64,000 nucleotides of DNA. It comes from an uncultured Porphyromonadaceae bacterium. GTDB taxonomy: Bacteria; Bacteroidota; Bacteroidia; Bacteroidales; Muribaculaceae. The notes below the pieces were generated by a model, which worked only from the letters and a program-made list of their open reading frames with translations, was not told the origin of the DNA and did not search any database. The DNA lies in NCBI GenBank assembly GCA_947643165.1, contig CANRVB010000003.1:1-64000 (forward strand), given 5' to 3'. The position numbers were made by a program, and so were the translations under genes. Numbering within the stretch: the stretch's first letter is position 1; every line of letters starts with the position of its first letter. This document shows, piece by piece, positions 1 through 18,773 of the stretch.

Positions 1-3
1 TAT

Positions 4-80
4 GCTTCCGTAGCTCAGTGGATTAGAGCGTCACGCTACGAACGTGAGGGTCGCAGGTTCGACTCCTGCCGGAAGTACCA
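4..80 (+). tRNA. tRNA-Arg (anticodon ACG)
   Basis: All four arms can be drawn. The acceptor stem is 4-10 with 70-76, the D stem GCTC/GAGC, the anticodon stem TCACG/CGTGA around loop CTACGAA, and the T arm GCAGG-TTCGACT-CCTGC. The discriminator A is followed by an encoded CCA at 78-80. Anticodon ACG reads Arg CGN codons after A34 deamination. The accessory island begins directly after it, a common arrangement for tRNA-targeted integration, but I see no second copy of the tRNA 3' end within the window. Confidence 0.97.
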
Positions 81-110
81 TAAAGACATTTTTGTCAAAC
101 ATTTTCTAAG

Positions 111-147
111 TTGTATCTATACTTGATACAAGTGAGTTATAAATTTG
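111..147 (+). promoter_or_regulatory. Operator/promoter 1 of the island regulon
   Basis: A perfect inverted repeat TTGTATC (111-117), 7-nt spacer, GATACAA (125-131) is followed by a -7 box TAAATTTG at 140-147. The operator begins exactly 29 nt before the -7 box, as in the two promoters at 11091 and 13267. No TTG lies at the usual -33 distance, so the operator occupies that place. The binding protein is inferred to be the WYL regulator at 13338. Confidence 0.75.
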
Positions 148-170
148 CACTGAAAGAAAATGCGAACTGT

Positions 171-1121
171 ATGACTCTAAAAGAATTATTCAGCAAGGTA
201 AAGTTTGAGAATATCGCTCCCTGGCTCATAAAGTTTGACCCTCAAAGTGAAACTTGCCTTTGGCTATTCAAGCAGGCATTCGACAGGATGCGTCAGCTTC
301 CGGTTGGAAAAGATGATGGCATTACCATCGATGTCAAGGGGTGGCATGTCTGGTCTCCGACTCGGGAAAGCTGGGATGTAGAACTTGCCCGCGAGATTAA
401 GGCTGCAAAGTCTGCTCCAAGAAATAAAGTGGCTGCCGCAATTCTATGGGAATTGACCTACTGGGGATTTGATATTGGCGACAAACCAAGATTTGCTGAT
501 GATTTCCAATCTCGGTTTGAGCGTGGTCGTGAATATGATGAGTCAGAAGTTGATGAAAATCCGTATCGCAGAGAATGGACTGAACTGTGGCAACAGGAAC
601 ACGATCTCGAATGCCGAAATTCCAAGGACATTGGCACCAAGTTCTTTTCTTGTGACGACGTGGAAGAGATGTTCGCTCCGCTCCCACCCGAAACGGAAGC
701 CATGTTGAAGCCTATTTCAGAGAAGAAAGAGGCTGTCGAGAAGAAGATGCGTCGGTATGACTTGGCGACCGAACTTATCCGGCAACACAAATCGGGAATC
801 GAGAATCCGGAAAAGTTCCGTCAATTCATTATGGATGCTCCGCCTTTTGATGTGGACACCATAAAGGCAGTCTGCCCATTGGAAGAAACGAGTGATTATC
901 TATCAGACCTTATCCACAAATGGTGTCCAGCAATGGAAGGAGAATCTTCGTTAGTCCTTATAAACTGCCCTGAATGTATTGATGCCAGAGATATTGCTGA
1001 GACGGCACGGGGAGCATTCGGCTCTTTCCGCAAACTTCCCAAACCGAAATACATACTATCACAATCGTCCGAGGTTAAAGAAGTTGTTCTCACCGTACTT
1101 ACCTTTGGTAATAAGGAATAA
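171..1121 (+). CDS. Uncharacterised protein, DUF6557-like (paralogue of 6734..7639)
   Basis: 316 aa from the ATG at 171. I reject the upstream TTG at 111 because it lies inside the operator, ahead of the predicted transcription start near 153. No signal peptide or membrane segment is seen. The N-terminus (MTLKELFSKVKFENIAPWL) and a central block (KVAAAILWELTYWGFD) align by eye with the 301-aa protein at 6734..7639 (TYQEYFRNSDFEYIW; TIAAHLLYWSTLYDI). The family resembles the Bacteroidales DUF6557 group from memory; no function is known to me. It is the leftmost gene of the island and shares its operator with the AAA+ and WYL genes at the right end, so it is probably co-regulated with them. Confidence 0.7.
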   Translation: MTLKELFSKVKFENIAPWLIKFDPQSETCLWLFKQAFDRMRQLPVGKDDGITIDVKGWHVWSPTRESWDVELAREIKAAKSAPRNKVAAAILWELTYWGFDIGDKPRFADDFQSRFERGREYDESEVDENPYRREWTELWQQEHDLECRNSKDIGTKFFSCDDVEEMFAPLPPETEAMLKPISEKKEAVEKKMRRYDLATELIRQHKSGIENPEKFRQFIMDAPPFDVDTIKAVCPLEETSDYLSDLIHKWCPAMEGESSLVLINCPECIDARDIAETARGAFGSFRKLPKPKYILSQSSEVKEVVLTVLTFGNKE

Positions 1122-1184
1122 TTCTCCTGAATATCAAATAATGCTCCAGTTAATCGTTTGCTGCGACTAACCGGAGCATTTGTT

Positions 1185-1598
1185 TTATCCCAAGGCGAGC
1201 ATATGCTGGAGCTTTTCCTTGACCTCGATGAGAAGTGAGCCAATCTCATGCTTTTCATCGAGATTGCATTTGTCAAGTCGTTCCACGGCAAGTGTCAACA
1301 GCTCACACATATCAGTAGGCAACGGGGATTCGGATATTGAGTAATCATCCACTCCGTACCTGTAGAACTTTCCATCGTAAACCTCAATGGGCGCGTTGTA
1401 GCCGAGTTTGTCAGACCTCATAATCTGGATGTCGGCTTGAACTGTTCTGACAGAGACCCCTCTGAGAATACCCTCCATTTCGTACAGAGCATCTGAACAA
1501 GCCTCAACGAGGTCATCCAGAGTCCATCTCCGGTATCTGTTTCTCAGACACCTGTCTATTGTCTTGTATCTTATAAGTGCATTTTTGTTTGCTGGCAT
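1185..1598 (-). CDS. Truncated WYL-type regulator (N-terminal HTH part only)
   Basis: 137 aa. The sequence MPANKNALIRYKTIDRCL, then YRRWTLDDLVEACSDALYE, then VSVRTVQADIQIMRSD is the typical N-terminal winged-helix region of Bacteroidales WYL regulators, which normally run to about 300 aa with a C-terminal WYL ligand-sensing domain. Here the protein stops after a short helical segment and no WYL domain follows. It may be a remnant of an older regulator or a stand-alone DNA-binding antagonist. It lies at the distal end of the minus-strand run, 489 nt downstream of the neighbouring broken gene, so it probably has its own promoter. Confidence 0.6.
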   Translation of the reverse strand: MPANKNALIRYKTIDRCLRNRYRRWTLDDLVEACSDALYEMEGILRGVSVRTVQADIQIMRSDKLGYNAPIEVYDGKFYRYGVDDYSISESPLPTDMCELLTLAVERLDKCNLDEKHEIGSLLIEVKEKLQHMLALG

Positions 1599-2087
1599 AG
1601 TGTTGATATTTTAGGAGCCAGCAAGCACTGCGTGGTTGTCTGGCATGGCGGTGATAAAAATCTATACTGTCCATAATGAATTCTGAAGACGTGCCATGCC
1701 GAATCAACAAGGATATACCGGACGTGGCACAAAAATCGGGAAGCTTTTTGACGGCCTCCCGATATATCCTTATTGATGAAGATGTCTGAATGTCAACTCA
1801 TACAATAACAATATGAATATTGTCGCGACCATCGTGAGCATACGTTGCGATAGCTAAAGCTAAACCAATAGCTAAAGCTGCTTGTGCATCGGCTGCTCTG
1901 ATGGCGCAGTGTTGATGATATTTCTTTAAGTATCGTCATTGTATTGTTCGTTTTCGGCTACAAAGTTAATTGAATTTCAGTACATGACAAATTCTGTCCC
2001 GAAATCCGGCTGCAAAATTAAAACTTGGCTACGCATTCTATTTGCGTAGCCAAGCAAAAACATCCACTAAAATCTGTTGCACAGGCT
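1599..2087. other. 489-nt stretch without a convincing gene
   Basis: No normal-sized gene is visible. Two weak items are a 26-codon plus-strand frame at 1696-1776 (MPNQQGYTGRGTKIGKLF...) and an inverted pair GGATATACCGG (1711) / CGATATATCC (1760), which could form a hairpin. Around 1851-1885 there is a short tandem motif TAGCTAAAGC / AATAGCTAAAGC. None of these has supporting context, so I treat the stretch as decayed or regulatory sequence. Confidence 0.4.
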
Positions 2088-2465
2088 TTATTTAGCTCCG
2101 AGAGCCTCATACATAAGCTGTTTCGCACGTTTCTCGACAATGGCTTCCCATAGGCGGGAGTCCTGAAGCTTGGCCATAGGGATATGGCTTTGGAACTTGT
2201 CTCGGAACTCACGTAGTGTCGCTTCGCAAATGAACGTGTCATGGCAATGGTAGGAAAACTCCGACCAATCGATGCGACAGCTGAACTTCTTTACGCCATC
2301 AACAGTACACCTGATGTTGCCATTCTCGCTGATTTCATCCCAGTAGAGTTTGTCCTGATACTTTTCAAGGATCTCCATGCTCAGAGTCTCGCCCTCTGAG
2401 ATTTTCTTCCAAGTGGCACTTTCAAGTACGCTCTGGAGAAATTAGTTGTTAGTAATCCTATTCAT
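2088..2465 (-). pseudogene. Small uncharacterised gene interrupted by an early stop
   Basis: Reading starts at ATG 2465 (MNRITNN), meets an in-frame TAA at 2444-2442, and continues in the same frame as FLQSVLESATWKKISEGETLS, then MEILEKYQDKLYWDEIS to 2088. A well-formed -7 box TAATTTTG lies at 2501-2494 on this strand, about 25 nt before the ATG at 2465, so the original start was there and not at the internal ATG at 2378. The W-K-x-I-S and E-K-Y-Q-D-K-W repeats recall short repeat proteins common in Bacteroidales, function unknown. A 96-aa product restarting at 2378 is still possible. Confidence 0.6.
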
Positions 2466-2493
2466 ATTATCTGTTATTTGTTTCTTACTGATG

Positions 2494-2501
2494 CAAAATT
2501 A
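2494..2501 (-). promoter_or_regulatory. -7 box for the gene starting at 2465
   Basis: On the minus strand the sequence reads TAATTTTGC, matching the Bacteroidetes TAnnTTTG element. It separates the small gene at 2465 from the operon-like run upstream, so that gene can be transcribed on its own. Confidence 0.5.
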
Positions 2502-2540
2502 TAGCTGTGAGGTCTCAATGGGCGATATAACATTGAAAAT

Positions 2541-2759
2541 TTACATCGCAAGATGAATTATTCCACCTCCTTTGATGAAAATTGTACGGTTACGACACAC
2601 CGCAGCATATACTTGAGCCGAAGTTACAGGATTACCATCGACTCTTACATGGAGACGTTCTTCATTAATTGTCTGCGCAATTTGGTCTGTTGTCATTCCA
2701 CGCCCGGCCGTTGCAAGAGCATACACCATTGCATCTTCAAGCCTCATCTTCATTATCAT
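2541..2759 (-). CDS. Small HARE-HTH-like DNA-binding protein
   Basis: 72 aa. The sequence MRLEDAMVYALATAGRGMTTDQIAQTINEE, with a later VTSAQVYAAVCRN block, fits the HARE-HTH winged-helix fold (found in restriction endonuclease, ASXL and RNA polymerase delta proteins) in which TTDQIAQxI is the recognition-type helix pair. The start is uncertain: three ATG codons (2759, 2753, 2747) all lie inside the end of the upstream VWA gene, so the two genes overlap by up to 23 nt and are probably translationally coupled. It could be a regulator or nucleic-acid adaptor of the MoxR-VWA pair. The family assignment is by eye. Confidence 0.6.
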   Translation of the reverse strand: MIMKMRLEDAMVYALATAGRGMTTDQIAQTINEERLHVRVDGNPVTSAQVYAAVCRNRTIFIKGGGIIHLAM

Positions 2760-4218
2760 TATCGGTATCCTTTTTGAATTTGTAATTTGTTATATTTTCC
2801 AGTTCTTTATGCTTTGTATATAAATATCTGAAATCGCATGAGTTAAAGAAATCATAGCCATTGTAGTCATATTCATTGAAGTAATCCTTTTGGGCATGGT
2901 ATAACACCGACTCATCCGTACTAACTCCATAGATACGCATCCCTTTATCACGGTTTTCCTGCAAGCGTTTGTTCACTTTTTTGTCAATGCCATACCACGA
3001 AAAGTCAGAAATCACAAGCAAATCCGCGCCTTCAAATCTGTAAGAGAATCGGGCGTATTCCTCCTTTTGCGGCAGGTCATTAAACAAAAATGAAAACAGT
3101 AAGTTTTCATCGTTACCTCCATCGTATGATGTGGAGAGAAATGACAAAAGCTTCATTTTCTGTTTCTTCAAATTTGTCAATACAAAGAAAGACACCCTAT
3201 GTGAATAATTGACCAATACCAATGGGCGATTGTTCCTCTGGGCTATAATAGCAACAGCAAGAGCCAACGTCTTGGCCATCATTTCAGGTTTTCCACTCAT
3301 CGAGCCACTTGTGTCAATGCACATGAAAATCGGGCCTTTGTCTTCAATAGGTCTCTTCGTAGAACTTGAAGCAGAAGCAAACACCTGTAATCTCTTTTGT
3401 GAATAGCGATGATAAAAGATATTTTCCGTTGACCTGTCTCCGAGAAGTGCCATTTCCGAGGGCATCACACAATTAAGATTGTTGCCTACTGTTACACCGG
3501 CTATATCACTTTTGCTGCTATGAATAAACTTACCTTTAATTTCCTCTGTCTCTGCAATACCATAGCGGCCAATCAATTCTGCGAGTTGAACGATTGATGG
3601 GTCTATGTCTTTCAGAAAAGTAGCTTCGGAGGTATGTTCCGGAGCCTTTTCCAAACCATGATATGGCTTTTGTTTCTGCTTTTCAGCATATTCCTTTCAA
3701 TCTTCAGGTAGGTGGTGGTCGGAAATTCCATTGTTCAAATCTGTGCAATCGCTTATTGCAGAGTTATCCGAACTGTATTCACCAGCCTTTTGCTCCGTTT
3801 GACAATCCCCATCATCACTGTCTTCTGTTTGACTTTCTTTTTTATCATTCTCATCTTGTTCAATCTTATAGAGGCGTTCCTTTTTCTCTTCTTCAGGTAT
3901 AAAGAAAAGGTAACTGGCAAACCATTCATTTAGGAAATCCTCTTTCAATCCCGTTAAGACATGCATATTACCCCATTGGTCAGAACTTAGCCCTTCGATA
4001 AATTTGCGGATTTTATATACTGAATACTTTCGCCAGAAGAAATCAGATTCAGTGACACTGTAAAAGCGGACATCTGAAACAATATCCCGAATCAATCCAT
4101 AGACCGGAACATTAGCCGACTTCATTCGAGCCATTACATCCAATATCGTATCAGATGCACGCAGGTTGATGGCAACACCCACACCTCGGTCAAGATATTG
4201 AAGATGTGTCTTTTTCAT
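2737..4218 (-). pseudogene. ViaA-like VWA protein interrupted by in-frame TGA
   Basis: From ATG 4218 the frame encodes 173 aa, hits TGA at 3699-3697, then stays open in the same frame to 2737, giving about 493 codons in total, close to the roughly 480 aa of ViaA. The second part has a VWA domain with the MIDAS motif DTSGSMSG, about 115 codons after a possible TTG at 3654. The stop lies in an acidic, low-complexity linker (EDSDDGDCQTEQ...DHHLPED, stop, KEYAEKQKQ). It follows the MoxR gene by 6 nt, as ViaA follows RavA. No good ATG restart with a ribosome site is seen right after the stop. Options are a nonsense mutation, two separately translated halves, readthrough, or a sequence error. Confidence 0.75.
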
Positions 4219-4224
4219 CCGTAT

Positions 4225-5628
4225 CTAACATTCAGATATTCGCTTTCGATAAATGCCTATATATTGCGCCACCATATGGTGAATTGAAGAGTTCATCAGA
4301 AATAAATTGTCATTCATATCATTACGGATACTATTCGACAATGCGTCAAGTTTTTCGCCAAACTCTATAAGGAAAGTCTCTGACAACTGTCTGTCGGCAT
4401 TTGTGCGAAGAGGATAATTGTAGTTGTTAATGCACACAAATCCTTCCTTTACGACCTGAATGGAGAATTGGCCTCGCTGCCTGACTGCGATTGTGCCGTC
4501 TGTTCTTTCTACGCCAAAATAAATCTGAGCCGATTGCCGCATCATCTTGTAATCGGATATTTTCAGTTTAAGAGGTCCTTCGTCACAAAGAACAACATAA
4601 TATTCTCTGTCGGCAATCAACAACCGCTTGTCCGTGGATTCTTTGGTTGCATGACGCTTATAACTTTTGAACTCTTCAAGCGTTCCTCTGAAGAGTAATT
4701 TTACAATCTCTTCAACAAGAATATACTCCACAACCTTAATTGTATCCTCGTCATTCCAAAGCATGTGGCGAAGCAGGAGCAGGTCGCTCAGATCGACGGT
4801 GTTTCGACCATTGAGATAGGCCGAGACACGAATCACACCAATGGACTTCTTCCATCGGCGGTCTGATATATAGAATTTTGCCGGATCTATACCTCCTTCA
4901 TCCTTTTCTTTATCCTTGGACTCGGAAGCCTTTCTCGTTAAACGTTCACGCACCGCACATATAACGTCAATTATGTCATCAGAAAGGGATACTCCTCGGC
5001 TTCCTTTCAATATCGATTCATATTCTTCATCTGTAATGGGGTTTATCACTGTAGGCGTGACAACCTCAGCGCTGCTTATTAGATTTACAAAAGATTGTCT
5101 GCTGTTAAGCGGTTCCACAACATATCGCAACAAAAATCTATCCCATAGGGCTTCAAGACCTTCACCCTCTGTTGGCAACTCGTTTGATGCCGAGATTATG
5201 CCTTTGATGGGAAGATACAATTCCTTGTTCCCATTTAGAAAGATTTTCTCATTCAGTACAGTCAACAGGGAGTTTTGAATTGCCGGACCAGCCTTCCATA
5301 TTTCATCAAGAAACACTATCTCTGCTTCCGGAAGATAGCCGGCAGTAACACGCTCGTATGAATCCTCATCCTTGAGTTTTGAAATACTGACCGGGCCGAA
5401 TATTTCATCCGGAGTAGAAAATCTTGACATAAGGTACTCAAACACGGTAGCGCCATAAAATGCCAGTTTCAGCCTGCGGGCAACCATCGACTTACCTACA
5501 CCGGGTAAGCCGAGAAGGAAGATACTCTCTCCTGCCAATGCACTGAGCAGACTTAATGCAAGCACTTCGTCCCTCTCGAATGTGCCAACTTTCATCGCCG
5601 ACAGTATTGTCCTGATTTTCTCTTTCAT
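4225..5628 (-). CDS. MoxR/RavA-like AAA+ ATPase
   Basis: 467 aa. Walker A GLPGVGKS is at residues 40-47 and Walker B IVFLDEIWKAG at about 104-114. They are followed by the MoxR-type LLTVLNEKIF segment and sensor 1 IISASNELP. The layout (AAA+ core up to about residue 300, then a mixed C-terminal region) fits RavA. RavA-type ATPases act as remodelling motors with a VWA partner that carries a metal-ion-dependent site; here the VWA gene follows by 6 nt. The upstream DprA-like stop is 8 nt away, so all are in one transcript. The ATPase is intact although its partner is interrupted. Confidence 0.88.
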   Translation of the reverse strand: MKEKIRTILSAMKVGTFERDEVLALSLLSALAGESIFLLGLPGVGKSMVARRLKLAFYGATVFEYLMSRFSTPDEIFGPVSISKLKDEDSYERVTAGYLPEAEIVFLDEIWKAGPAIQNSLLTVLNEKIFLNGNKELYLPIKGIISASNELPTEGEGLEALWDRFLLRYVVEPLNSRQSFVNLISSAEVVTPTVINPITDEEYESILKGSRGVSLSDDIIDVICAVRERLTRKASESKDKEKDEGGIDPAKFYISDRRWKKSIGVIRVSAYLNGRNTVDLSDLLLLRHMLWNDEDTIKVVEYILVEEIVKLLFRGTLEEFKSYKRHATKESTDKRLLIADREYYVVLCDEGPLKLKISDYKMMRQSAQIYFGVERTDGTIAVRQRGQFSIQVVKEGFVCINNYNYPLRTNADRQLSETFLIEFGEKLDALSNSIRNDMNDNLFLMNSSIHHMVAQYIGIYRKRISEC

Positions 5629-5636
5629 TTCTACAA

Positions 5637-6719
5637 CTATAGTTTGAACGGCTTTGCAATTCCATTCTCAATAAGGTACCGGTTTCCCGGCCAATTACAA
5701 TCAAGTGCAAAGATCGGCTTCCGAAACTTCTGTGCGTATTCAACGGCGTGCATTGTACCGCTTTTCTTTTCACATTCAACTACTACGACCTTGTCAGCGA
5801 GAGCCATCTGCAAACGTGTTCTTCCAATCAGAGTTCTCGGACTGGCTTTCGTTCCTTCAGGTTGCTCTGATAAAATAAGACCATTTGAATCAATGATTCG
5901 TTTTTGAAGATCAACGTTTTCTTTTGGATGCACAATGTCAAGTCCGGCCCCAACTACGGCTATAGTCCTGCCTCCTGCATCAAGACAGCCTCTATGAGCT
6001 GCGGTATCTACTCCTCTGGCAAGACCACTGACTACTATTTCTGATGAATGGTATTGCCCCAGACGATAAGCTACATCCAGCCCCCTTTCGTCAGGATTTC
6101 GACTGCCGATAATTGCCACCCGTTGCCTGAACAATGGAGGCCGACGTATCAAATGCACATCTCCCAAAAGATACAGATGGAAAGGAGCATCGTCATTACG
6201 CCGATCATAATCAAAATATTTAATGAACTCACGCGGATATATGGGCGACTGATAATGAAGAGCTATTGGTTTTCCGGGAATTACATGAAAGTCATCATTC
6301 CAACCTTCGACAGAAGGAAATGCACTCTTCATCATTTGAATCAAATCCATTTTAAGCGCAATTAAATCATCATAGGCATAGCACCCGTATAAATCAGGAT
6401 CCAGCCATCTATGCCATCCGTCAGGTTCACCATTGTCATACGACAATTCAACCGACCAACATTGGTCAGTAGTTCCATGATGCAAGTTCAAGCAGTATAG
6501 CCTATCGGTAATAGGGTCATGAAACTTATAAGACAGCTCATCGGGGCTCGGCGGATAATCCGCAAGCCAATAGTGTAATCTGTTTTCCTCACGTTCTCTT
6601 TGCTCATCACGCAAATGTGCACCGGCAAGCCATTCATCAAAGTTTTTATATGGGAATGATTGATTCGTTCTTTCAGCACATTCTTTCATGGCTTCAAAAA
6701 CCTTATCCCTCCTACTCAT
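5637..6719 (-). CDS. DprA-like protein with novel N-terminal domain (copy 1)
   Basis: 360 aa. The C-terminal half is a DprA/Smf Rossmann-like domain: RVAIIGSRNPDERG, VVSGLARGVDTAAHRGCL, TIAVVGAGLDIVHPKEN, LILSEQPEG, and a last block VVVECEKKSGTMHAVEYA. The first 180 or so residues are aromatic and acidic (HYWLADYPPSPDELSY...) and match nothing I recognise. The C-terminal winged helix of housekeeping DprA is absent. DprA binds single-stranded DNA and loads RecA; the wider SLOG superfamily also includes nucleotide and DNA sensors in conflict systems. It lies between the unknown protein (14 nt) and the MoxR ATPase (8 nt), suggesting it works with the ATPase rather than in natural transformation. 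Confidence 0.82.
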   Translation of the reverse strand: MSRRDKVFEAMKECAERTNQSFPYKNFDEWLAGAHLRDEQREREENRLHYWLADYPPSPDELSYKFHDPITDRLYCLNLHHGTTDQCWSVELSYDNGEPDGWHRWLDPDLYGCYAYDDLIALKMDLIQMMKSAFPSVEGWNDDFHVIPGKPIALHYQSPIYPREFIKYFDYDRRNDDAPFHLYLLGDVHLIRRPPLFRQRVAIIGSRNPDERGLDVAYRLGQYHSSEIVVSGLARGVDTAAHRGCLDAGGRTIAVVGAGLDIVHPKENVDLQKRIIDSNGLILSEQPEGTKASPRTLIGRTRLQMALADKVVVVECEKKSGTMHAVEYAQKFRKPIFALDCNWPGNRYLIENGIAKPFKL

Positions 6720-6733
6720 AGCATTTCAATAAC

Positions 6734-7639
6734 TTAGTCCCACCATTTTTTCATATTCTTGCTCAGGAATCTCCACAAGATGTCGTATGACTTGGCTTGT
6801 CTTATTTTGCGCTGATAAAACTCTCTTGAATCAGCGTTATCTATTACTATCTCGTCTTTATAGAACCGCTTTGCATTTGTCATATTCACATAGACATTCC
6901 TCATGTCATTATAGCCATCTATAACAATATTTATTAGACTGCAAGCAAGCTGCATCCGCTTTACATCTTCTTCCCAGCCGACATGACGCTGCACATATCG
7001 CCAATAGCCGATATTATATTCAAGTTTGTGCCTTAATATCCGTAGGTTCTCAGACCAATCTATCGCAGAGTCGCGTGAAACGGCTTTACACCAATACTTT
7101 TGACGCTTCCTATGACGGCTCTCCGCTTCATATTCCTGTTCTATTTCATGCGTGTACGGCACATCCTTGAAGCTATCTTCAATCCATTTTGCGAATTCTT
7201 CTGCGTGTTGTTGGCTGGTTTTTATATCGTATAGAGTCGACCAGTAAAGCAAATGGGCGGCAATAGTTGCAGTATCGCTCTGACGTGCCGACTGACGCTT
7301 CTGCTTGGAGGTAAGCATATCAAAAGGAATACTGGGTACTCCACTGTCCTTTGCGTCATCCTCATCACGCCAATGCCCGAAGTCAATTTCAACCTCTCGT
7401 CCCAACAACCATTCCTGAGGATCAGGAGCGCCGACAACCATGATTTCGTTGTTTGGGTCAAGTTGCATTTTTATTGAAGAGATTGAGTGTCCGGGCACCA
7501 TCGGCAATAATCTGATCTGATTGACCAATGCCTCGTATTCTTCTTTCAGACCATCGTTCTCTCCATAAAATCCTGAGAGGATAGCCCAGATATACTCAAA
7601 ATCTGAATTGCGAAAGTATTCTTGATATGTCATAATCAT
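6734..7639 (-). CDS. Uncharacterised protein, DUF6557-like (paralogue of 171..1121)
   Basis: 301 aa, start ATG 7639 or 7633 (MIMTYQEYF); a -7 box TAATTTTG at 7658-7651 leaves only a few nt of leader. The N-terminus and a TIAAHLLYWSTLYDI block resemble the protein at 171..1121. The remainder is rich in W, Y, R and E with no membrane segment and no motif I recognise. Its place just ahead of DprA copy 1 and the MoxR gene, with short gaps, implies joint function. The repeated occurrence of this family in the island suggests a structural or substrate-binding subunit; that role is inference. Confidence 0.65.
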   Translation of the reverse strand: MIMTYQEYFRNSDFEYIWAILSGFYGENDGLKEEYEALVNQIRLLPMVPGHSISSIKMQLDPNNEIMVVGAPDPQEWLLGREVEIDFGHWRDEDDAKDSGVPSIPFDMLTSKQKRQSARQSDTATIAAHLLYWSTLYDIKTSQQHAEEFAKWIEDSFKDVPYTHEIEQEYEAESRHRKRQKYWCKAVSRDSAIDWSENLRILRHKLEYNIGYWRYVQRHVGWEEDVKRMQLACSLINIVIDGYNDMRNVYVNMTNAKRFYKDEIVIDNADSREFYQRKIRQAKSYDILWRFLSKNMKKWWD

Positions 7640-7784
7640 TTATTTTACCGCAAAATTATCCCTGCCATGTCGCAGTTTGCGATACAGCATGAAGAAATTG
7701 CAATAAAAATATTCCAGAATCTAAGCCAGCTTTACGGGCCTTACCTCAATCTTGTAGGTCAACTCTGCAAATATATGTTTCCCA
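7640..7784 (-). promoter_or_regulatory. Intergenic region with two minus-strand promoter boxes
   Basis: Two TAnnTTTG boxes point leftward: TATATTTG at 7775-7768 and TAATTTTG at 7658-7651. The second sits just before the start at 7639. The first would give a leader of about 120 nt or a short RNA. The island run therefore has at least one internal promoter between the two DprA-like genes. Confidence 0.45.
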
Positions 7785-8597
7785 TCAATTGTCATACCTC
7801 AAAGGAATCGCTCGTCTGGAATCGATTAACAGCCTATTGCCGCCATTGATTTCTGTATATTTTGGGAATTCAACCACATAGCTTTTCTTATGGTACTTCC
7901 GTGCAAAACGCATCGTGTGCATCGAACCGCTTCGCTCTGGACATTGAGCAAGTATAACCGATTCCGAAAGAGCGGCCTGCAGTCGGTTGCGAGCGACAAG
8001 CCGTGAGGGATTTGCTTTTATGCCAATATGCTGTTCCGAAAGCAGTAATCCACCATTCTCCAGTATTCGGTTTTGCAGAGGCTTGTTTTCGATTGGGTGT
8101 GTGATGTCCAATCCTGATGCTACAATAGCAATAGTTTCTCCGCTAACACTTAGGCAACCTTCGTGTGCCGCTTTGTCGCAGCCAAACGCCAGACCGCTCA
8201 CAATAACTTTCCCTTCCGTTGCAAATCTTACGCCTAAAGAGAATGAGGCATCCAATCCTTGACGGTCAGCTGCACGTGCGCCGATAATCGCAACCGAATC
8301 ATTTCTCTCAATTAACTTAGTATTGCCTTGTAGATGTATAAGTGGAGGAGCGTCATTACCGATGGCCAGAAGCTGTTTGGGATAATTGTCATCCTGAATA
8401 GAGATAATCTTAATTCCTAATGCGTACTCCTTGTCAAACAACTTTTCCGCTTTCTCCAACCACTCGTCAAACAGCTCCTGATTTTCATCATAAAGAGCAT
8501 CAAAAGCATCTATATCTGTTTTCTTGATTTGGGCCGGCGTCAATCCATGCCATACGAGACATTGGACTTCTTCTATTGTAAGCCTATTTTCATTCAT
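7785..8597 (-). CDS. DprA-like protein (copy 2)
   Basis: 270 aa. A short N-terminal segment (MNENRLTIEEVQCLVWHG) resembles the helical start of housekeeping DprA. It is followed by NYPKQLLAIGNDAPPLIHLQGN and the SLOG-type core: SVAIIGARAADRQG, VIVSGLAFGCDKAAHEGCL, TIAIVASGLDITHPIEN, GLLLSEQHIGIKANPSRLVARNR, and ESVILAQCPERSGSMHTMRFA. It lacks the C-terminal winged helix. The arrangement is closer to canonical DprA than copy 1, and the two are clearly diverged, so this is not a recent tandem duplication. Housekeeping competence function cannot be ruled out, but its neighbours are all accessory genes. Confidence 0.82.
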   Translation of the reverse strand: MNENRLTIEEVQCLVWHGLTPAQIKKTDIDAFDALYDENQELFDEWLEKAEKLFDKEYALGIKIISIQDDNYPKQLLAIGNDAPPLIHLQGNTKLIERNDSVAIIGARAADRQGLDASFSLGVRFATEGKVIVSGLAFGCDKAAHEGCLSVSGETIAIVASGLDITHPIENKPLQNRILENGGLLLSEQHIGIKANPSRLVARNRLQAALSESVILAQCPERSGSMHTMRFARKYHKKSYVVEFPKYTEINGGNRLLIDSRRAIPLRYDN

Positions 8598-8606
8598 ATA
8601 TTCCTG

Positions 8607-8965
8607 TTAAATTTGAGAATTTGACATATTTACCAAGATGGTCAATTTTATAAGTTTCCTATCGCAATACTCGTTTTTGATGAAATGAATTTCTGCAATA
8701 TTTTTGTTTAGACAGGGTGTTTCTGACCTTTGATAATATTCCGGACGATGTATCATACCGACTATATCAGCATATTTCATATATGGCTCACCCATAATTT
8801 GTTTACAGACAGCCGTATCTAATGAACCGTCAGGCTGAACTACCTTATCTGCCCTACTTACTTGCGACAGATACCAGTCTCCACACATTGTACACTCAGA
8901 CCTTTTGGGATTCCTTTATTACCGCAGATGTTTTGCTTTGCAGTTACTTTAAATGAGTATGGCAT
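8607..8965 (-). pseudogene. Small protein gene with probable frameshift (DUF6140-like start)
   Basis: ATG 8965 opens a 35-aa frame, MPYSFKVTAKQN then KGLSVQCVETG, ending at TAA 8860-8858. An overlapping frame shifted by one base runs from about 8888 to 8607 (YLSQVSRADKVVQPDGSLD, then YADIVGMIHRPEYY). The N-terminal pattern MPYxFKVT...KGxSVQ recalls a small Bacteroidales family (DUF6140) whose members continue past this point, so the two frames look like one gene with a one-base indel near 8875. A -7 box TACCTTTG lies at 8999-8992. The far end of the second frame may be non-coding. Family recall is low confidence. Confidence 0.4.
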
Positions 8966-8991
8966 AATTATATTGTTTATTGGTTCGGTGG

Positions 8992-8999
8992 CAAAGGTA
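8992..8999 (-). promoter_or_regulatory. -7 box upstream of the small frameshifted gene
   Basis: The minus strand reads TACCTTTGC, matching TAnnTTTG, 27 nt before the ATG at 8965. No TTG stands at the usual -33 distance. This promoter could serve the downstream DprA copy 2, which begins 9 nt after the small gene region ends. Confidence 0.45.
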
Positions 9000-9027
9000 G
9001 AGGCTTAATCGGCAACATTCATGCCGG

Positions 9028-10170
9028 TTACGACTTGCTTCGGATTAATTGTATTATTTCTTCAGCAGCCTTTATCAATGGCTCATTACATTGAAGATGT
9101 TCTGCAATGATATTTTGCACACAACACTTATCCAATAATTCAGAGTTTTTCAGTGGAACTCTTAAGCGTGCGCAATGCCAGAACTTTGACGGCTTATTAT
9201 CACAGCCTACACCATGGATATCCGCTATCCCTTTTATATCCTTACGTAATTCAGAAGAGTTCTTGATTAAATTCCACCAAGTATCCAATGGCTCTAAGCA
9301 TAAAAACACAAACGGCGGTGTTTCAATTGATTTCCATAAAAATTCATATACAATTGTAACAACAAAACTATCCGTTCCAGGGAATTTATACATCACATAG
9401 CGATATTTCGCGCCAGTTCGTTCTTTATGAATCAATTCGAGCCCAATACGCTTAGCAAATTTCGGATCGCAGAATAAATCTTGAATGCTTTTCTTTGAAT
9501 CATTAATTATTGAGTTTAGATGATTCAAAAGTTCACGATTCCTAAGATAGAATGCCAATTCTTCTTTTTTATTATCTGATAGTGTTTCTATTGTTGACAT
9601 AAAGTCATTTAAGTATATCAAATTACGTTCGTTGAGTTGTATTTTCCTTTCTCGAATCATAGACTTAACACAATCTATCCATTCTTTATGGGTTATATTC
9701 ACCCAATTCCGGTGGATAATGTGTATTGGTGAAAGAGTCAGCACTAATCCTGTTTTTCTATGGTTTGAATATTTTACCGAATCCCAATAGAGATCCAGAT
9801 CATTATTTAATGTATGATAAACCTTATTTTCAATAATAATGGCATTATTCCAATCTTGAATTACCAGATCAATTCGTTTTTTATTATCATCCTTTTCGTT
9901 TATATCTGTTGCAAGTTCCAATTGAATCCACCAATCCTGGAGCCGAATTTGACAGCCTGTGCGCTTTGCTATAAGTTGTTCCAATGCTCGAACAAATACA
10001 TCACCCAATCCGTGATTCTCTTGTGGATTGCAATAATAAGCATAGATATTCGACCACGCATTTTCGTAATGCTGGAGACCAGTAATACAAAGAAAGGATT
10101 TTTGAAACTGCTTCCTCTCAGGGATGTCTTTCAGTTTATCCAAACAAATTTGCAGCTCCGTCAGATTCAT
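9028..10170 (-). CDS. PD-(D/E)XK nuclease superfamily protein
   Basis: 380 aa. The N-terminal block EN-HGLGDVFVRALEQLI is typical of the PDDEXK_4 type. The active-site signature follows: D101 in KKRIDLVI, then E114 and K116 in AIIIENKVYH (D-x12-E-x-K). The C-terminal 230 residues carry a second, unassigned domain. Members of this group are found next to restriction-like and anti-phage genes; the cutting target is unknown. It stands between the metallophosphoesterase and the DprA-like group in the same orientation. Composition is AT-rich compared with the core genes to the right, suggesting transfer. Confidence 0.78.
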   Translation of the reverse strand: MNLTELQICLDKLKDIPERKQFQKSFLCITGLQHYENAWSNIYAYYCNPQENHGLGDVFVRALEQLIAKRTGCQIRLQDWWIQLELATDINEKDDNKKRIDLVIQDWNNAIIIENKVYHTLNNDLDLYWDSVKYSNHRKTGLVLTLSPIHIIHRNWVNITHKEWIDCVKSMIRERKIQLNERNLIYLNDFMSTIETLSDNKKEELAFYLRNRELLNHLNSIINDSKKSIQDLFCDPKFAKRIGLELIHKERTGAKYRYVMYKFPGTDSFVVTIVYEFLWKSIETPPFVFLCLEPLDTWWNLIKNSSELRKDIKGIADIHGVGCDNKPSKFWHCARLRVPLKNSELLDKCCVQNIIAEHLQCNEPLIKAAEEIIQLIRSKS

Positions 10171-10228
10171 TATAGTACATACTTAAGGTTGTTACTATCA
10201 AAGTCAATTTTATTCATGTTATTAGAGT

Positions 10229-10822
10229 TTATAATTCAATTACATTTGGAGTGAATAGGTTTGTATAGTCAGCATTCATTATAGCTCCGTTGGAGAAGGT
10301 GACCCCGTGTTCGGTCAGAATGCCGTGTTGTGCGTGTATGTGACCAAATAGATGCAGCCGGGGATGGATTTCAAGGACTTTGGGGAGAAGTCGCTCGTCT
10401 CCGTAATTTATGCCATCATCGAAATCAAGTATCCCGAAAACTGGGCTATGAGTTATCAGCACATCAGTGTCTGCCGGTATTTTAGCAATGTTGTTAGATT
10501 GACCATCGGTGACACAATCACCCATAAACATCGGGACTCCATAAAACTTCACTCCGTCAATCTCCATGCCAGAGTTACAAAGGTAATGAACATTGGAGTC
10601 GAGGCCCTCTATGTTGGCTCCATAGAGGCAATCGTCATGGTTTCCGCAGATGAAGACCTTATGAGCATACGGCAAGTCGCAAAACCAGTTCATAAAGTCG
10701 ATCGCTTCTTGCTCTGAACCAGTCATTGTAAAGTCGCCGGAATGAACCACAACATCCGCTTCGGGCAAATCCGTCAATCTTCTGTGGCAAGCATGTGTAT
10801 CAGAGAGGTGGAGTATCTTCAT
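10229..10822 (-). CDS. Calcineurin-like metallophosphoesterase
   Basis: 197 aa from ATG 10822 (MKILHLSDTHACHRRL); an ATG 12 nt upstream is possible but adds a poor MHYG start. All five metal-ligand blocks are present: SDTH, VVHSGDF, ICGNHDD, LITHSP and LFGHIHAQHG. Soluble, no signal peptide. This family hydrolyses phosphomonoesters or diesters, including cyclic nucleotides; the substrate is not determined by sequence. It heads the minus-strand run of the island. A role in degrading a signalling nucleotide or nucleic-acid end is possible but unproven. Confidence 0.88.
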   Translation of the reverse strand: MKILHLSDTHACHRRLTDLPEADVVVHSGDFTMTGSEQEAIDFMNWFCDLPYAHKVFICGNHDDCLYGANIEGLDSNVHYLCNSGMEIDGVKFYGVPMFMGDCVTDGQSNNIAKIPADTDVLITHSPVFGILDFDDGINYGDERLLPKVLEIHPRLHLFGHIHAQHGILTEHGVTFSNGAIMNADYTNLFTPNVIEL

Positions 10823-10838
10823 TCCATAATGCATTAAA

Positions 10839-10972
10839 TTAAAAAGTTAACTTGTTTGGATATAGAGTTACCAATTCTTGCCATGTTTTATGTATGATAT
10901 TTTGCGACAAGTTTTCTTTGCTCCAATCACGAGACAATTTCGTAGCAAGTTTTTATACTCTTCATATTTCAT
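10839..10972 (-). pseudogene. Frameshifted small gene remnant
   Basis: ATG 10972 starts MKYEEYKNLLRN... and stops at 10868. If one A is added to the five-A run at 10954-10950, the frame becomes MKYEEYKK, LATKLSRDWSKENLSQNI, IHKTWQELVTLYPNKLTF and ends at 10839. The second reading is much more protein-like (TWQELVTLYPN), so a one-base loss in a homopolymer is likely. It ends 17 nt before the phosphoesterase start and was presumably the first gene of that transcript. No family recognised. Confidence 0.45.
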
Positions 10973-11090
10973 ACTCCGAACTTTTTAGATGGTTATATCT
11001 TCAATCACTAAATGCAAATTTAATAAAAGTATATTGATTATATGGACCTTATGCTATTAAACAATACCAAATATATAAACCGCCCATTAC

Positions 11091-11127
11091 TTGTATCGGC
11101 AAATGATACAGGTTGATATTAATTTTG
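11091..11127 (+). promoter_or_regulatory. Operator/promoter 2 of the island regulon
   Basis: TTGTATC (11091-11097), 7-nt spacer, GATACAG (11105-11111), then -7 box TAATTTTG at 11120-11127. The operator-to-box distance is 29 nt, identical to the copies at 111 and 13267. It lies 37 nt before the AAA+ gene. Confidence 0.75.
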
Positions 11128-11163
11128 CCGATGTAATTCAATAACCACGTAAATCCGGTAATT

Positions 11164-13257
11164 ATGGAAATGAAATCTATACAGTTTCTTAAAGCGGCAG
11201 CAAATAAGCTCAGAGACGGCAAACTCAAGCGTCTGGGTGGAAAAGAGCTATCAGAGGCTCTTAACGGCATGATACTGTCCTTAGGGCTTGACTCCAAAGA
11301 TGAGGCCATCATATTCGCTGCGCTGTTCGACAGAAGCTGTGCCGGCCGCTGTTCCGATCTCGATGATATAGCGTCATATTTCGGTGCATCACAACTTGAT
11401 GTAATGGAGTATGTGCCGACAATCAGAAGTCTTGAGACGAAAGGTTTCATTGTCCAGATCGACAGAAGCGAATGTCGTATAGGACGTCAGAATTTCATGG
11501 TGACCAACTACGTGATTGGTTGCATTCTGGAAAATCAGAAGCCAAACCACCATAAAGCCACTATTCTTGAAAAAGAATTTGACAAGTATGATCTTTGCAA
11601 ACTGGTAAGCTCACAGATATACGACAATGAAGTCTCTACTGAAGCATTATTCCAGTTTGTCGAAAGTGCTGAACGAGACTATGCCACAATGCAACTCGTT
11701 AAAGATCTTAAAGAGGTTTTGCCTTCTTTGGCCGACAGGACATTGTTCTATGCTATGTGCACCGATTTTGTTGAGCAGGATGGTAATGGACGCTCCGACA
11801 TTTCCCGGACTCTCGGCGATATGTATAAAGCCTACGGGATAAGATTCAAGGTGCGCAAGTCGCTGATCGACGGAACAAACCCACTGATGACAGCCAATCT
11901 CATCGAACTGTCAAGCGACATGGAGGATTTAGCGCTGACGACCAAAGGACAGAGACTTTTCCTAGCAGAGGATTTCGGCGCATTCGGCCAGCAGTATTCC
12001 GGCCTGAATCTATACTCATTCGCACGTCAGGTCAAGGAGTATGTCCACAGTCGAGACCACGATGCCGAAAAACCTGGGGCTATGAAAAAGCTTGCAGAGA
12101 AGATCTGTATCATAGAGGAGTCAAACCGTTCGTTGGAATGTCTGCCCAAAATAAAGGAAATAATAGCTGAAGAAGATTACCGCGCCTTGTTTTACATCGC
12201 TTGCGATGCCTGCGCCAACGGAAACATGCTCAGCGTTTCACATGAGATGGGAGAAATGTATCCTGTCAAGGAGCGCAACAAGTACATAAAGGAGTTCAAA
12301 GAAGAGACGCACAAGTTGCAACGTCTTGACCTTATGGAGATGGTGACACAGTCATCCATTTTCGGGGAGTATACAGTATTGCAGCTGACCGACAAAGGGA
12401 AAGAGCTGTACTTCGGCGAAGATGCCTCACTCTATATTGATAAGCCGGAGAAAAAGGACCTCATCTGTGCTGCCGACATCAGGGAAAAGCATCTGTTCTT
12501 CTCTGAAAAAGAGCAGTCGCAGCTCAATCTTGTAGGAAACTCACTTCAGGAAGCCAACTACAGCAATATGGTAAGCCGACTTGAAGCGAAAGGCTTGCCC
12601 AAAGGAATGGCGATACTGCTCTACGGGGCTCCCGGCACGGGTAAAACCGAATCCGTAATGCAGTGGGCACGTTCAACCGGTCGTGACATTATCCACGTTG
12701 ATATTTCCGCATCGAAAAGCATGTGGTATGGTGAAAGTGAGAAAATTATAAAAGAGATTTTCACCAAATACCGTAGGCAGTGTAAACGCTCTGCTCTGAG
12801 ACCCATTCTGCTTTTCAACGAAGCTGATGCCATTTTTGCCTCACGCAAAACCGGCAACAACAGCAGTATTGACCAGACTGAGAACGCCATTCAGAATATC
12901 ATCCTTGAAGAGATGGAGCAACTGGATGGTATTCTGATAGCCACGACCAATCTGGTCGACAATCTCGACAAGGCCTTCGAGCGCCGTTTCCTCTTCAAAA
13001 TCCGTTTCGACCGACCGTCAGTCGAAGCCAAAGTGAAAATCTGGAGAGACAAACTTTCGGCTCTTACTGAAGGACAGGCCCGTTCATTGGCCTCACGTTA
13101 CGATTTCAGCGGCGGAGAGATAGACAACATCGTCAGAAAAGCCCTAATGTCGGAGGTACTTGAAGGTAAAGCACCATCGATCGGCGAGATAGAGAAACTC
13201 TGTTCAGAAGAAAAAATTGGGAAATCATCCAACAAACGTGTCGGATTTAATGTATAA
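11164..13257 (+). CDS. Winged-helix repeat AAA+ ATPase
   Basis: 697 aa. The N-terminal 440 residues hold at least three winged-helix-like units; two align by eye (DRTLFYAMCTDF...LTTKGQRLFL and YRALFYIACDA...LTDKGKELYF). A classical FtsH/CDC48-type AAA+ domain follows: Walker A GAPGTGKT (488-495), Walker B ILLFNEAD with Asn552 in place of the usual first Asp, sensor 1 IATTN, and the FERRF arginine-finger region. Asn at this Walker B place keeps the catalytic Glu553. Related Bacteroidales AAA+ proteins exist, function unknown to me. It shares its operator with the WYL gene 80 nt downstream and with the gene at 171. Confidence 0.8.
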   Translation: MEMKSIQFLKAAANKLRDGKLKRLGGKELSEALNGMILSLGLDSKDEAIIFAALFDRSCAGRCSDLDDIASYFGASQLDVMEYVPTIRSLETKGFIVQIDRSECRIGRQNFMVTNYVIGCILENQKPNHHKATILEKEFDKYDLCKLVSSQIYDNEVSTEALFQFVESAERDYATMQLVKDLKEVLPSLADRTLFYAMCTDFVEQDGNGRSDISRTLGDMYKAYGIRFKVRKSLIDGTNPLMTANLIELSSDMEDLALTTKGQRLFLAEDFGAFGQQYSGLNLYSFARQVKEYVHSRDHDAEKPGAMKKLAEKICIIEESNRSLECLPKIKEIIAEEDYRALFYIACDACANGNMLSVSHEMGEMYPVKERNKYIKEFKEETHKLQRLDLMEMVTQSSIFGEYTVLQLTDKGKELYFGEDASLYIDKPEKKDLICAADIREKHLFFSEKEQSQLNLVGNSLQEANYSNMVSRLEAKGLPKGMAILLYGAPGTGKTESVMQWARSTGRDIIHVDISASKSMWYGESEKIIKEIFTKYRRQCKRSALRPILLFNEADAIFASRKTGNNSSIDQTENAIQNIILEEMEQLDGILIATTNLVDNLDKAFERRFLFKIRFDRPSVEAKVKIWRDKLSALTEGQARSLASRYDFSGGEIDNIVRKALMSEVLEGKAPSIGEIEKLCSEEKIGKSSNKRVGFNV

Positions 13258-13266
13258 AAGCCCAAC

Positions 13267-13303
13267 TTGTATCGCTAAATGCGACATGATTTAATTAACT
13301 TTG
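13267..13303 (+). promoter_or_regulatory. Operator/promoter 3 of the island regulon (wyl gene)
   Basis: TTGTATC (13267-13273), spacer GCTAAAT, then a degenerate right arm GCGACAT; -7 box TAACTTTG at 13296-13303. The distance from operator start to box is again 29 nt, and the spacer AAAT matches operator 2. A weaker right arm in front of the regulator's own gene is what one expects for looser autoregulation. Confidence 0.7.
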
Positions 13304-13337
13304 CAACATAAGAACCACCCTGCTTAAATAAAAGCAC

Positions 13338-14243
13338 ATGACTCAACTACAGAAATATACATGGCTGATAGAAACCATCAGACGTGCCGGAAAAATTTCG
13401 CACAGGGATTTGTCCGACAAATGGGAACGCTACAAGGATCTCAGCGACTGCAAGCCGCTCCACCGCGCTACATTCAACCGCTGGCGCGATGCCATCTTCT
13501 CGCAGTTCGGAATAATTATCGACTGCCAGCGTGTCGGTGGCTATCTCTATTTCATCGCAAATCCTGAAGACATAGATGAGGATGAACTGAAAAAGTGGAT
13601 GCTCGACTCATTTTCCGTAGGTAATCTTATCGGAGAGAATCTTTCACTCAAAGACAGGATTCTCGTTGACCAGATTCCGTCAGGCCGCGATTATCTCACC
13701 ACCATACTGGAGGCCATGAAAGAAAATCGGGTTATCAACATGGAGTACAAGGCTTTCAAGTATGACAAGGCTTTCAAAATTCCGGTCGAGCCATATTGCG
13801 TCAAGCTTCATGAGAACCGCTGGTACATGCTCGGACACAATCTGAGCAAAGATACGATCCGTCTGTATGGACTTGACCGCATCGAGTCAATTGAGATTAC
13901 TGATCAGGAATATAAATTGCCCAGAAACTTCTCAGCCTCAGAATATTTCTCCAACTACTTCGGCATAGTGGCAGACGATGAAGTTAAGCCTGAGCGAATT
14001 GTAATTCGCTCAAACTCAGACCATACTCCCTATCTCAAATCCTTGCCACTTCACCATAGTCAGAAGTTGGTCGAGGACAATGGGGAATACGCTGATTTTG
14101 AGTTGTATCTTGCTCCTACATACGACTTTGTGATGAAACTGCTTCAAACCGGGGCTATGGTTGAGGTTCTGGAACCGATGTCTCTTAGAGAGACTATAAA
14201 AGGTTGGATTTCAGACATGCAGCAACTTTATATAACTGACTGA
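13338..14243 (+). CDS. WYL-domain transcriptional regulator
   Basis: 301 aa. The N-terminal helix-turn-helix region (KYTWLIETIRRAGKISHRDLSDKW...HRATFNRWRDAI) is followed by the WYL domain with VEPYCVKLHENRWYMLGHN and IRLYGLDRIESIE, and a C-terminal WCX-like segment. WYL proteins sense ligands, often nucleic acids or nucleotides, and frequently control anti-phage loci (BrxR, CapW types). It follows the AAA+ gene and has its own copy of the island operator, so it is the natural candidate for the protein that binds all three sites. A bidirectional terminator follows. Confidence 0.9.
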   Translation: MTQLQKYTWLIETIRRAGKISHRDLSDKWERYKDLSDCKPLHRATFNRWRDAIFSQFGIIIDCQRVGGYLYFIANPEDIDEDELKKWMLDSFSVGNLIGENLSLKDRILVDQIPSGRDYLTTILEAMKENRVINMEYKAFKYDKAFKIPVEPYCVKLHENRWYMLGHNLSKDTIRLYGLDRIESIEITDQEYKLPRNFSASEYFSNYFGIVADDEVKPERIVIRSNSDHTPYLKSLPLHHSQKLVEDNGEYADFELYLAPTYDFVMKLLQTGAMVEVLEPMSLRETIKGWISDMQQLYITD

Positions 14244-14266
14244 CATGCAGGACTTTCGTTGAAGAG

Positions 14267-14305
14267 AACCGGTGGCTTTATCATGACGACAAAGCCACCG
14301 GTTTT
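14267..14305. terminator. Bidirectional terminator between wyl and GH2
   Basis: A 13-bp perfect stem AACCGGTGGCTTT / AAAGCCACCGGTT with a loop of 11 nt is followed by TTTTCC on the plus strand. It separates two convergent genes and marks the right end of the accessory island. Confidence 0.85.
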
Positions 14306-14321
14306 CCATAAAAAAGGGTTA

Positions 14322-17705: not shown

Positions 17706-17741
17706 CATAAAGGTAGATAATGTAGATGAATTTTTCACCTA

Positions 17742-17749
17742 CAAAGGTA
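17742..17749 (-). promoter_or_regulatory. -7 box of the GH2 gene
   Basis: The minus strand reads TACCTTTG, matching TAnnTTTG, 37 nt before ATG 17705. It supports the shorter start of the GH2 protein. Confidence 0.6.
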
Positions 17750-18769: not shown

Positions 18770-18773
18770 ACTG

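Follow-up and report, generated by a model that had tools for sequence, protein, structure and literature searches.

A palindromic operator at a fixed distance from the -7 box in a Muribaculaceae genomic island and its probable WYL-domain regulator

WYL-domain regulators are widespread, but only for few of them is it known which genes they control and how they act. The system nearest to the one treated here is DriD of Caulobacter crescentus, an activator which, as described in a preprint (PMC12340889), binds ATACGAC-N7-GTCGTAT over the -35 region, at a constant distance from the -10 element of the aligned promoters, whose -35 elements are poor. The same preprint states that the WYL domains of DriD and of PafBC bind single-stranded DNA (ssDNA). 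SiwR of Mycobacterium smegmatis is another WYL activator, described as a homodimer in vitro which recognises an imperfect palindrome between the -10 and the -35 of an adjacent operon (PMC10693628). Here we describe a palindromic operator, TTGTATC-N7-GATACAA in its most regular copy, in a defence-like island of an uncultured gut Porphyromonadaceae bacterium (Muribaculaceae in the GTDB lineage; assembly GCA_947643165.1, contig CANRVB010000003.1, positions 1 to 64,000, hereafter the window). The same island encodes a protein composed of an N-terminal helix-turn-helix (HTH), a WYL and a WCX domain. We think it probable that this protein reads the palindrome and, in a DriD-like manner, activates from the place of the -33 element, probably its own gene included.

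A palindrome at a constant distance from the -7 box

The promoter box was defined as TAnnTTTG, a 6/6 box being a six-of-six match, and offsets were counted from the first operator base to the T of the box. The initial annotation had reported three copies of the operator, here designated A1, A2 and A3, each starting 29 nt before a box, and all three were found with the sequences, positions and spacing that it gave (Table 1). The bare palindrome carries little information: with at most three mismatches it occurs 4 times in the window against 2.73 expected, which is not beyond chance, and with at most two mismatches it occurs at 9 places in the whole genome (2.64 Mb, 46 contigs, 88.5% complete) against 13 for the reversed control. 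When the geometry is included, i.e. TGTATCNNNAAATGATACA-N9-TAnnTTTG with at most three mismatches, the genome yields four matches, every one in the island, and the reversed control yields none. The many unrelated genomic copies, for which the initial annotation had advised to search, are thus not seen. Because the bare palindrome does not exceed chance in the window or the genome, the claim of a regulon rests on geometry together with conservation. A site at 38788 was considered as an operator and rejected as a chance occurrence, and it is absent from the geometry matches of the window.

The fourth match, A4, lies on the minus strand, where no copy had been noticed before. It was recovered independently by a position weight matrix built from 30 operators which precede WYL orthologues in relatives, with the window left out of the model, and its box stands 19 nt before the gene start at 7639. 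A homologue of the A4 promoter is found in locus L095 (84% over 135 bp), where the reading frame that follows stops within a few codons. The right arm of A3, earlier called degenerate, reads GCGACA, an ordinary variant of the half-site which also occurs in 6 of the 30 model operators; since the half-sites TGTATC and TGTCGC alternate among these operators, the arm has to be regarded as normal. Invariant in the model are G3, G15, C19 and A20, the arms occupying positions 1-7 and 15-21. In A1 all 7/7 pairs are formed about a dyad at offset 19.

Conservation in relatives and across WYL clades

A search for the WYL protein covered 297 genomes of the family, and 40 orthologues (64-87% identity) were compared in their genomic context, in stretches of at most 20 kb. 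The element lies upstream of the WYL orthologue in 32 of the 40 relatives, as it does in the window, and in 28 of these 32 it is followed by a 6/6 box at the 29-nt distance. The arms, on whose fate in orthologous islands the first proposal had been made to depend, are therefore kept, and the consensus at the orthologues is CTGTATC-rCrAAAT-G[AC][TG]ACAG.

The same geometry holds away from the WYL gene. Among operator matches above 11 bits at other genes (40 loci and the window), a 6/6 box stands at 29 nt in 62 of 79, and the remaining offsets between 12 and 49 hold no such box at all; the reversed sequences gave 24 matches and no box. When the cut-off was lowered to 4 bits, 79 boxes were found at 29 nt, compared with 0-2 at every remaining position between 21 and 40. 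Eighteen loci of the genome_contigs collection, among them one of Phocaeicola coprocola DSM 17136 and some from records that carry the labels Rikenella and Parabacteroides, gave 30 boxes at 29 nt, the remaining offsets between 21 and 44 being empty, with the proviso that matches of 4-11 bits were kept only if at 29, that L184-L186 are contigs already used, and that L196 repeats L195, so that 17 loci are distinct and 1 of the 30 boxes is a repeat. The P. coprocola locus (L198) encodes a 68% orthologue and has, on the divergent strand, an operator of 9.9 bits whose box, again at 29 nt, belongs to an AAA+ gene. L195 (CALUPG010000001.1) and L196 (CALUQB010000044.1) are identical over 17,009 bases, either via assembly or through a very recent transfer.

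The full element (at most two mismatches) is present in 78 of the 297 genomes, the reversed control giving 3 matches in 3 genomes. It occurs in 53 of 55 genomes with a WYL orthologue versus 25 of 242 without one (Fisher 1e-36, uncorrected for relatedness). An orthologue was accepted at an E value of at most 1e-99, one truncated at a contig end was added, and the genome of the window is among the 55. Of the 25 exceptions, 17 genomes (18 stretches) were examined. Several stretches are near contig ends and only some could be accounted for: L086 holds a fragment of the WYL orthologue, an operator in L092 stands before a WYL gene of 37% identity, and in L085 the same gene families are accompanied by a different HTH regulator of similar type.

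Five loci from genomes without a WYL orthologue (L085, L091, L094, L097 and L098) also carry a related operator, TTGTACCGCAAAATG..; in several of them its left half is found again, in inverted form (ATTTTGCGGTACAA), just past the -7 box. A HAD-type gene with the motif 'FLDFDGVLNT' lies near the related operator in L085, L091 and L094.

The positional rule extends beyond the clade of the window. A further 80 WYL genes (about 35-60% identity) were combined with the 41 earlier ones into 28 clades; ten joined the clade of the window and 70 fell outside it. A 6/6 box lies upstream of 47 of these 70 paralogues, and in 27 of the 47 promoters, distributed over 9 of 18 clades, a palindrome with at least five of seven pairs has its dyad 19 bp before the box, compared with 0-3 promoters for any of the remaining offsets between 13 and 25. 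The mean over clades amounts to 3.73 of 7 pairs, versus 1.83 (standard deviation 0.23, maximum 2.6) in 2000 shuffles. The palindromes themselves differ from clade to clade, e.g. TAATCGG..CCGATTA, ACCTATGCC..GGCATAGGT, GTATGAA..TTCATAC and CCTGTCA..TGGCAGG, and, judged by eye, the residues of the putative recognition helix vary between clades as well.

A scan which started from the boxes (1,358 boxes; 76 loci plus the window, 1.30 Mb in all; palindromes of at least 6/7 pairs) found 83 palindromes at offset 19, of which 33 remained once the operator of the window's clade had been removed. The next peaks were 20 at offset 16 and 11 at offset 26. The former was rejected as a second register, as 14 of the 20 appear by eye to be the beginning of the WYL coding sequence, read in antisense; the latter was set aside too, 7 of the 11 being, again by eye, the type C operator (Table 1) viewed from the other side, at a divergent promoter.

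The same scan brought out the operator T[AG]CGCA-N7-TGCG[CT]A, with 41 sites, 40 of which have a box of at least five of six matches at dyad +19. Of these 40, 36 precede rtcB by 15-196 nt and 4 are upstream of a gene for a mini-HTH protein described below, and some sites are shared with a divergent WYL gene of about 340 amino acids. Such a WYL gene, divergent from a copy of rtcB with one palindrome between them, was observed in L048, L050, L051, L054, L057, L058, L070 and L076. In these pairs the 19-bp register faces rtcB, although in some the box matches at no more than five of its six positions. In seven loci with this operator, among these and similar ones, a 26-bp register is found on the opposite side. 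The arrangement recalls DriD, which is described as activating only its divergent operon (PMC12340889).

Genes under the operator in relatives and in the island

The 85 operators at genes other than WYL (40 loci and the window) lead to 81 open reading frames in 22 clusters, most of which were identified by a Pfam search with one representative each. RtcB RNA ligase (16), AAA+ ATPase (12), metallophosphoesterase (8) and bpMoxR (5) are followed by a 233-amino-acid family (5), a 171-amino-acid family (4), tubulin/FtsZ-like proteins (3) and others; a mixed cluster of seven includes the 6734-7639 protein of the window. The tubulin/FtsZ-like proteins are short (173 amino acids) and stand under the same operator in L078, L055 and L069, PF00091 being matched for L078. 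Of the 40 family loci, 24 encode RtcB and 20 the metallophosphoesterase; among the 15 other loci, of which 14 are distinct, the counts are 9 and 7, respectively.

In 16 loci (L047, L048, L050, L052, L053, L055, L057, L059, L065, L066, L070, L076, L077, L084, L086 and L102) rtcB has tandem promoters, one with the T[AG]CGCA-type operator and one with the operator of the window's clade. Their boxes are 36-78 nt apart, mostly 69, and both palindromes have the 19-bp dyad offset. No RtcB match was obtained in the window's own genome, which is 88.5% complete.

Table 1. Operators, promoter boxes and genes of the island, in window coordinates
Feature	Position	Strand	Details
Operator A1, TTGTATC-N7-GATACAA	111..131	+	box TAAATTTG at 140-147; ATG of driven gene at 171
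Gene driven by A1, weak DUF6557 similarity	171..1121	+	24.2 bits, below the 27.8 cut-off
Mini-HTH gene, 137 amino acids, behind type C promoter	1185..1598	-	422-nt leader
Type C operator, GGCTACGCAAATAGAATGCGTAGCC	2027..2051	-	box TAATTTTG at 2020-2013; 7/7 pairs
Predicted operon under A4	2737..7639	-	five genes head to tail; gaps of 14, 8, 6 and 42 nt
Operon gene 5, vWA protein	2737-3654	-	
Operon gene 4, small protein	3697-4218	-	
Operon gene 3, bpMoxR ATPase (PF20030)	4225-5628	-	
Operon gene 2, DprA/SMF	5637-6719	-	
Operon gene 1, no Pfam match	6734-7639	-	
Operator A4, CTGTATCGCAAACTGCGACAT	7667..7687	-	box TAATTTTG at 7658-7651; 23.1 bits; operon start at 7639
Genes behind type B promoter: 8607-8888, then DprA2 (7785-8597)	7785..8888	-	gap of 9 nt
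Type B operator, TAACCGGCATGAATGTTGCCGATTA, same geometry	9006..9030	-	box TACCTTTG at 8999-8992; resembles clade-1 WYL operator
PD-(D/E)XK nuclease	9028-10170	-	Pfam/PADLOC scans
Metallophosphoesterase	10229-10834	-	
Operator A2, TTGTATCGGCAAATGATACAG	11091..11111	+	box TAATTTTG at 11120-11127; 20.6 bits
AAA+ ATPase driven by A2	11164..13257	+	ATPase part resembles IetA models
Operator A3, promoter of the WYL gene itself, TTGTATCGCTAAATGCGACAT	13267..13287	+	box TAACTTTG at 13296-13303; 22.4 bits
WYL regulator, N-terminal HTH - WYL - WCX, 301 amino acids	13338..14243	+	Pfam WYL 3e-15, WCX 4e-7; proposed cognate activator

In the island itself, AAA+ genes of the cluster to which the A2-driven ATPase belongs stand behind operators in 11 cases among the relatives, and relatives of the A1-driven protein were found in 5 of 55 loci. 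The initial annotation had pictured a WYL-controlled module whose inducible parts flank a separately transcribed enzyme block. One operator with a fixed geometry, the WYL protein as its likely cognate factor and a reach across the island are all supported by co-occurrence, by the operator at the regulator's own promoter and by the geometry. The separate block is not: the DprA-MoxR-vWA operon is headed by A4 on the minus strand and the enzyme block therefore belongs to the predicted regulon; moreover, the unit of 8607-8888 and DprA2, and the HTH gene at 1185-1598, have other palindromes in the same geometry. It is plausible that the operator-controlled genes of the island are inducible. No 6/6 box, and hence no operator in this geometry, occurs in the 200 nt upstream of the PD-(D/E)XK nuclease and metallophosphoesterase genes, and the box before the small open reading frame 2088-2378 is without an operator. 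A possible divergent promoter facing the metallophosphoesterase gene was noted at A2, with a box TATATTTG at 11068-11075 on the minus strand, 26 bp from the A2 dyad.

PADLOC, run on 10 proteins, identified no complete named anti-phage defence system among them; the partial matches were two ShosA-like DprA proteins, the IetA-like ATPase, the PDC-S26 nuclease and the WYL protein. A tRNA-Arg gene (ACG) at window positions 4-80, at the start of the contig, ends 30 nt before A1. The window was searched for a repeat of the tRNA 3' end that could serve as a right attachment site, and none longer than 14 bp was found; an Rfam scan of positions 1-20000 returned this tRNA only.

The type B site has 1 mismatch to the clade-1 pattern, whereas the 4 other genomic matches have 3. 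No clade-1 WYL protein was detected in the genome, where the clade-1 query matches just two proteins, that of the island itself (42%) and one at C1:55648 (32%); this suggests that the site is an orphan operator or that its regulator was lost or is unassembled. The mini-HTH protein behind the type C promoter resembles the N-terminal part of a WYL regulator and lacks the WYL domain. Counterparts of 135-138 amino acids with leaders of 383-478 nt are found in L047, L051 and L088, and the mini-HTH proteins are 52-56% identical to the N-terminus of proteins of 340-368 amino acids. The leaders hold an open frame of about 47-50 codons and, by eye, a terminator-like hairpin.

Probable mode of action, alternatives and known systems

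Based on our observations, we propose that a WYL dimer would bind over the -33 place, its dyad lying 19 bp ahead of the T of the -7 box, and would recruit the housekeeping RNA polymerase, in the manner of DriD, to promoters which keep only the -7 box. The operator does stand in place of the -33 element, as originally proposed: TTTG at offsets 22-27 occurs in 0 of 74 operator promoters, versus 19% of 149 other boxed starts (peak at 23-24). As the operator promoters are without TTTG, the dimer would sit where sigma region 4 expects the -33. The signal sensed by the WYL domain would most likely consist of ends or fragments of nucleic acids; the presence of RNA ligase and DprA proteins suggests damage to nucleic acids, or their invasion, as the possible trigger. 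Such a signal would jointly switch on the AAA+ ATPase, the 171-1121 protein, the operon of the protein without Pfam match, DprA, MoxR and vWA, and the WYL regulator, because all four genomic sites, the regulator's promoter included, lie in the island. The regulator's own operator would give positive feedback, autoactivation being favoured because this promoter is in register.

The predicted fold is consistent with this proposal. A Foldseek search with a model based on 18 sequences (mean predicted local distance difference test score, pLDDT, 77.5; a single-sequence model with a mean of 36.9 was set aside) returned DriD (E value 1.3e-12), PafBC (2.5e-12), CapW (9e-8) and BrxR (1e-6), and the WYL domain aligns with the PafBC chains. 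The protein has no Pfam HTH match; the model shows HTH-like helices at 3-57, followed by a two-strand wing.

Several observations weigh against activation by the WYL protein. The operator is missing directly upstream of 8 of the 40 orthologues, two of which (in L065 and L070) have the element further upstream, before another gene, and the element is present in the 25 genomes without an orthologue mentioned above. Of the 70 paralogues outside the window's clade, 23 are without a 6/6 box, and a palindrome at 19 is missing from 20 of the 47 boxed promoters. A1 combines perfect arms with an unusual spacer, which leaves it with 2.5 bits on the full model, against 16.8 when only the arms are scored. 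That the -33 lacks TTTG is in part a consequence of the operator sequence, which fills those positions, and therefore does not count as independent evidence; the fold evidence is limited by the mean pLDDT already given and by TM-scores of 0.46-0.48 to full-length DriD. Finally, a repressor covering the -33 could occupy the same position.

This last point leads to the principal alternative, in which the WYL protein would be a repressor of the BrxR/CapW type that covers the promoter, blocks polymerase and is released by a ligand. BrxR is described as a WYL repressor of a defence island which binds inverted repeats, CapW being named as similar (PMC9122601), and a protein over the -33 could well occlude polymerase. 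However, a repressor would need neither an exact spacing at unrelated promoters nor an absent -33, the R-BOX1 of BrxR is placed downstream of the -10 box in the same account, whereas here the dyad precedes the -7 box by 19 bp, and the predicted fold appears much nearer to the activators DriD and PafBC than to BrxR and CapW. We therefore regard repression as unlikely, while giving it more weight than the two explanations that follow.

It is also conceivable, though quite improbable in our opinion, that some other factor, e.g. an alternative sigma factor or another island-borne regulator, reads the palindromes, and that the WYL gene is just a frequent neighbour. The genomes which hold the element and lack the orthologue would fit such a factor, as would the other palindromes found in the same geometry in the same islands, but the co-occurrence with one WYL clade is strong, the operator is present at that clade's own promoter, the palindrome changes with the WYL clade while the geometry stays, and a two-fold symmetric site suits a dimer better than a sigma factor. 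We give hardly any credence to the idea that the constant spacing is simply inherited from one promoter cassette copied from gene to gene within islands, free of functional constraint. Many of the instances do come from related islands, and some promoters, e.g. those of rtcB, are clearly orthologous; yet the eight-base spacers vary, by eye, between gene classes while the offset is exact, and the unrelated palindromes of other clades have the same dyad offset.

Activation by the WYL protein from the -33 place, which we prefer, may be one case of a broader scheme. The evidence is about evenly poised on whether the HTH-WYL-WCX proteins of Bacteroidales form a large family of promoter-specificity factors, with clade-specific palindromes and one docking position, the dyad 19 bp before the -7 box, in replacement of the -33. 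Islands would then be wired by interchangeable operator/regulator pairs, with several codes per island and RtcB under two of them, and the WYL-less mini-HTH proteins may compete for such sites or modulate them. A positional rule readable in raw sequence would make the WYL regulons of Bacteroidales predictable. It also connects the WYL family to RNA-repair, MoxR-vWA and DprA modules and turns the switching of these islands into a testable question.

Among described systems, BrxR and CapW resemble the present one as WYL regulators in defence-like islands with an inverted-repeat operator (PMC9122601); in addition to being a repressor with a site downstream of the -10, BrxR is reported there to use 11-bp repeats with a 5-bp spacer, and its fold match is weaker. 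The RtcR-rtcBA RNA-repair system likewise has a nucleic-acid-sensing regulator upstream of the RtcB ligase, as in many relatives of our island, but RtcR is described as a CARF-sigma54 activator (PMC7790460, PMC4012209), whereas here a WYL regulator would act on a -7-only promoter. The pair of bpMoxR ATPase and vWA genes is shared with the beta-propeller MoxR-vWA ternary systems (PMC7159879), from whose description the operon of the island differs in that its Pfam scan gave no beta-propeller match and that DprA-like proteins are found instead.

PafBC of mycobacteria, the second fold match, is a WYL/WCX activator which works with the housekeeping polymerase at nonstandard promoters; as far as the sources describe it, it is a heterodimer with a non-palindromic motif and has no local island regulon (PMC6789036, PMC11804915). 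SiwR differs by its 19-bp site and its one adjacent operon of DinB-like genes (PMC10693628). Among the matches listed from the open-licence literature, no WYL regulon with RtcB, nor a fixed palindrome/-7 geometry in Bacteroidales, was recognised by title or abstract start.

The likeness is closest to DriD as the preprint presents it (PMC12340889), which shares the HTH-WYL-WCX architecture, a 7-N7-7 palindrome, several target promoters, a site over the -35 (here the -33) at a constant distance from the -10 (here the -7), and a poor element at the covered position, and which is also the top fold match. In contrast, the half-site here is TGTATC or TGTCGC, the promoter is of the Bacteroidota -7/-33 type, and the targets lie in one island of this genome only. 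DriD is reported to activate the operon divergent from driD, while here an operator in the activating register stands at the regulator's own gene; and a response to DNA damage and ssDNA, as in DriD, would be hypothetical here. As the operator is found at the WYL gene in 32 of 40 relatives, we speak of a DriD-like mechanism and not of a DriD orthologue. The arrangement described here is thus probably a DriD-like activation by a WYL protein, with a local multi-promoter regulon and perhaps a family-wide code, which suggests that activation of the DriD type reaches a phylum with -7/-33 promoters.

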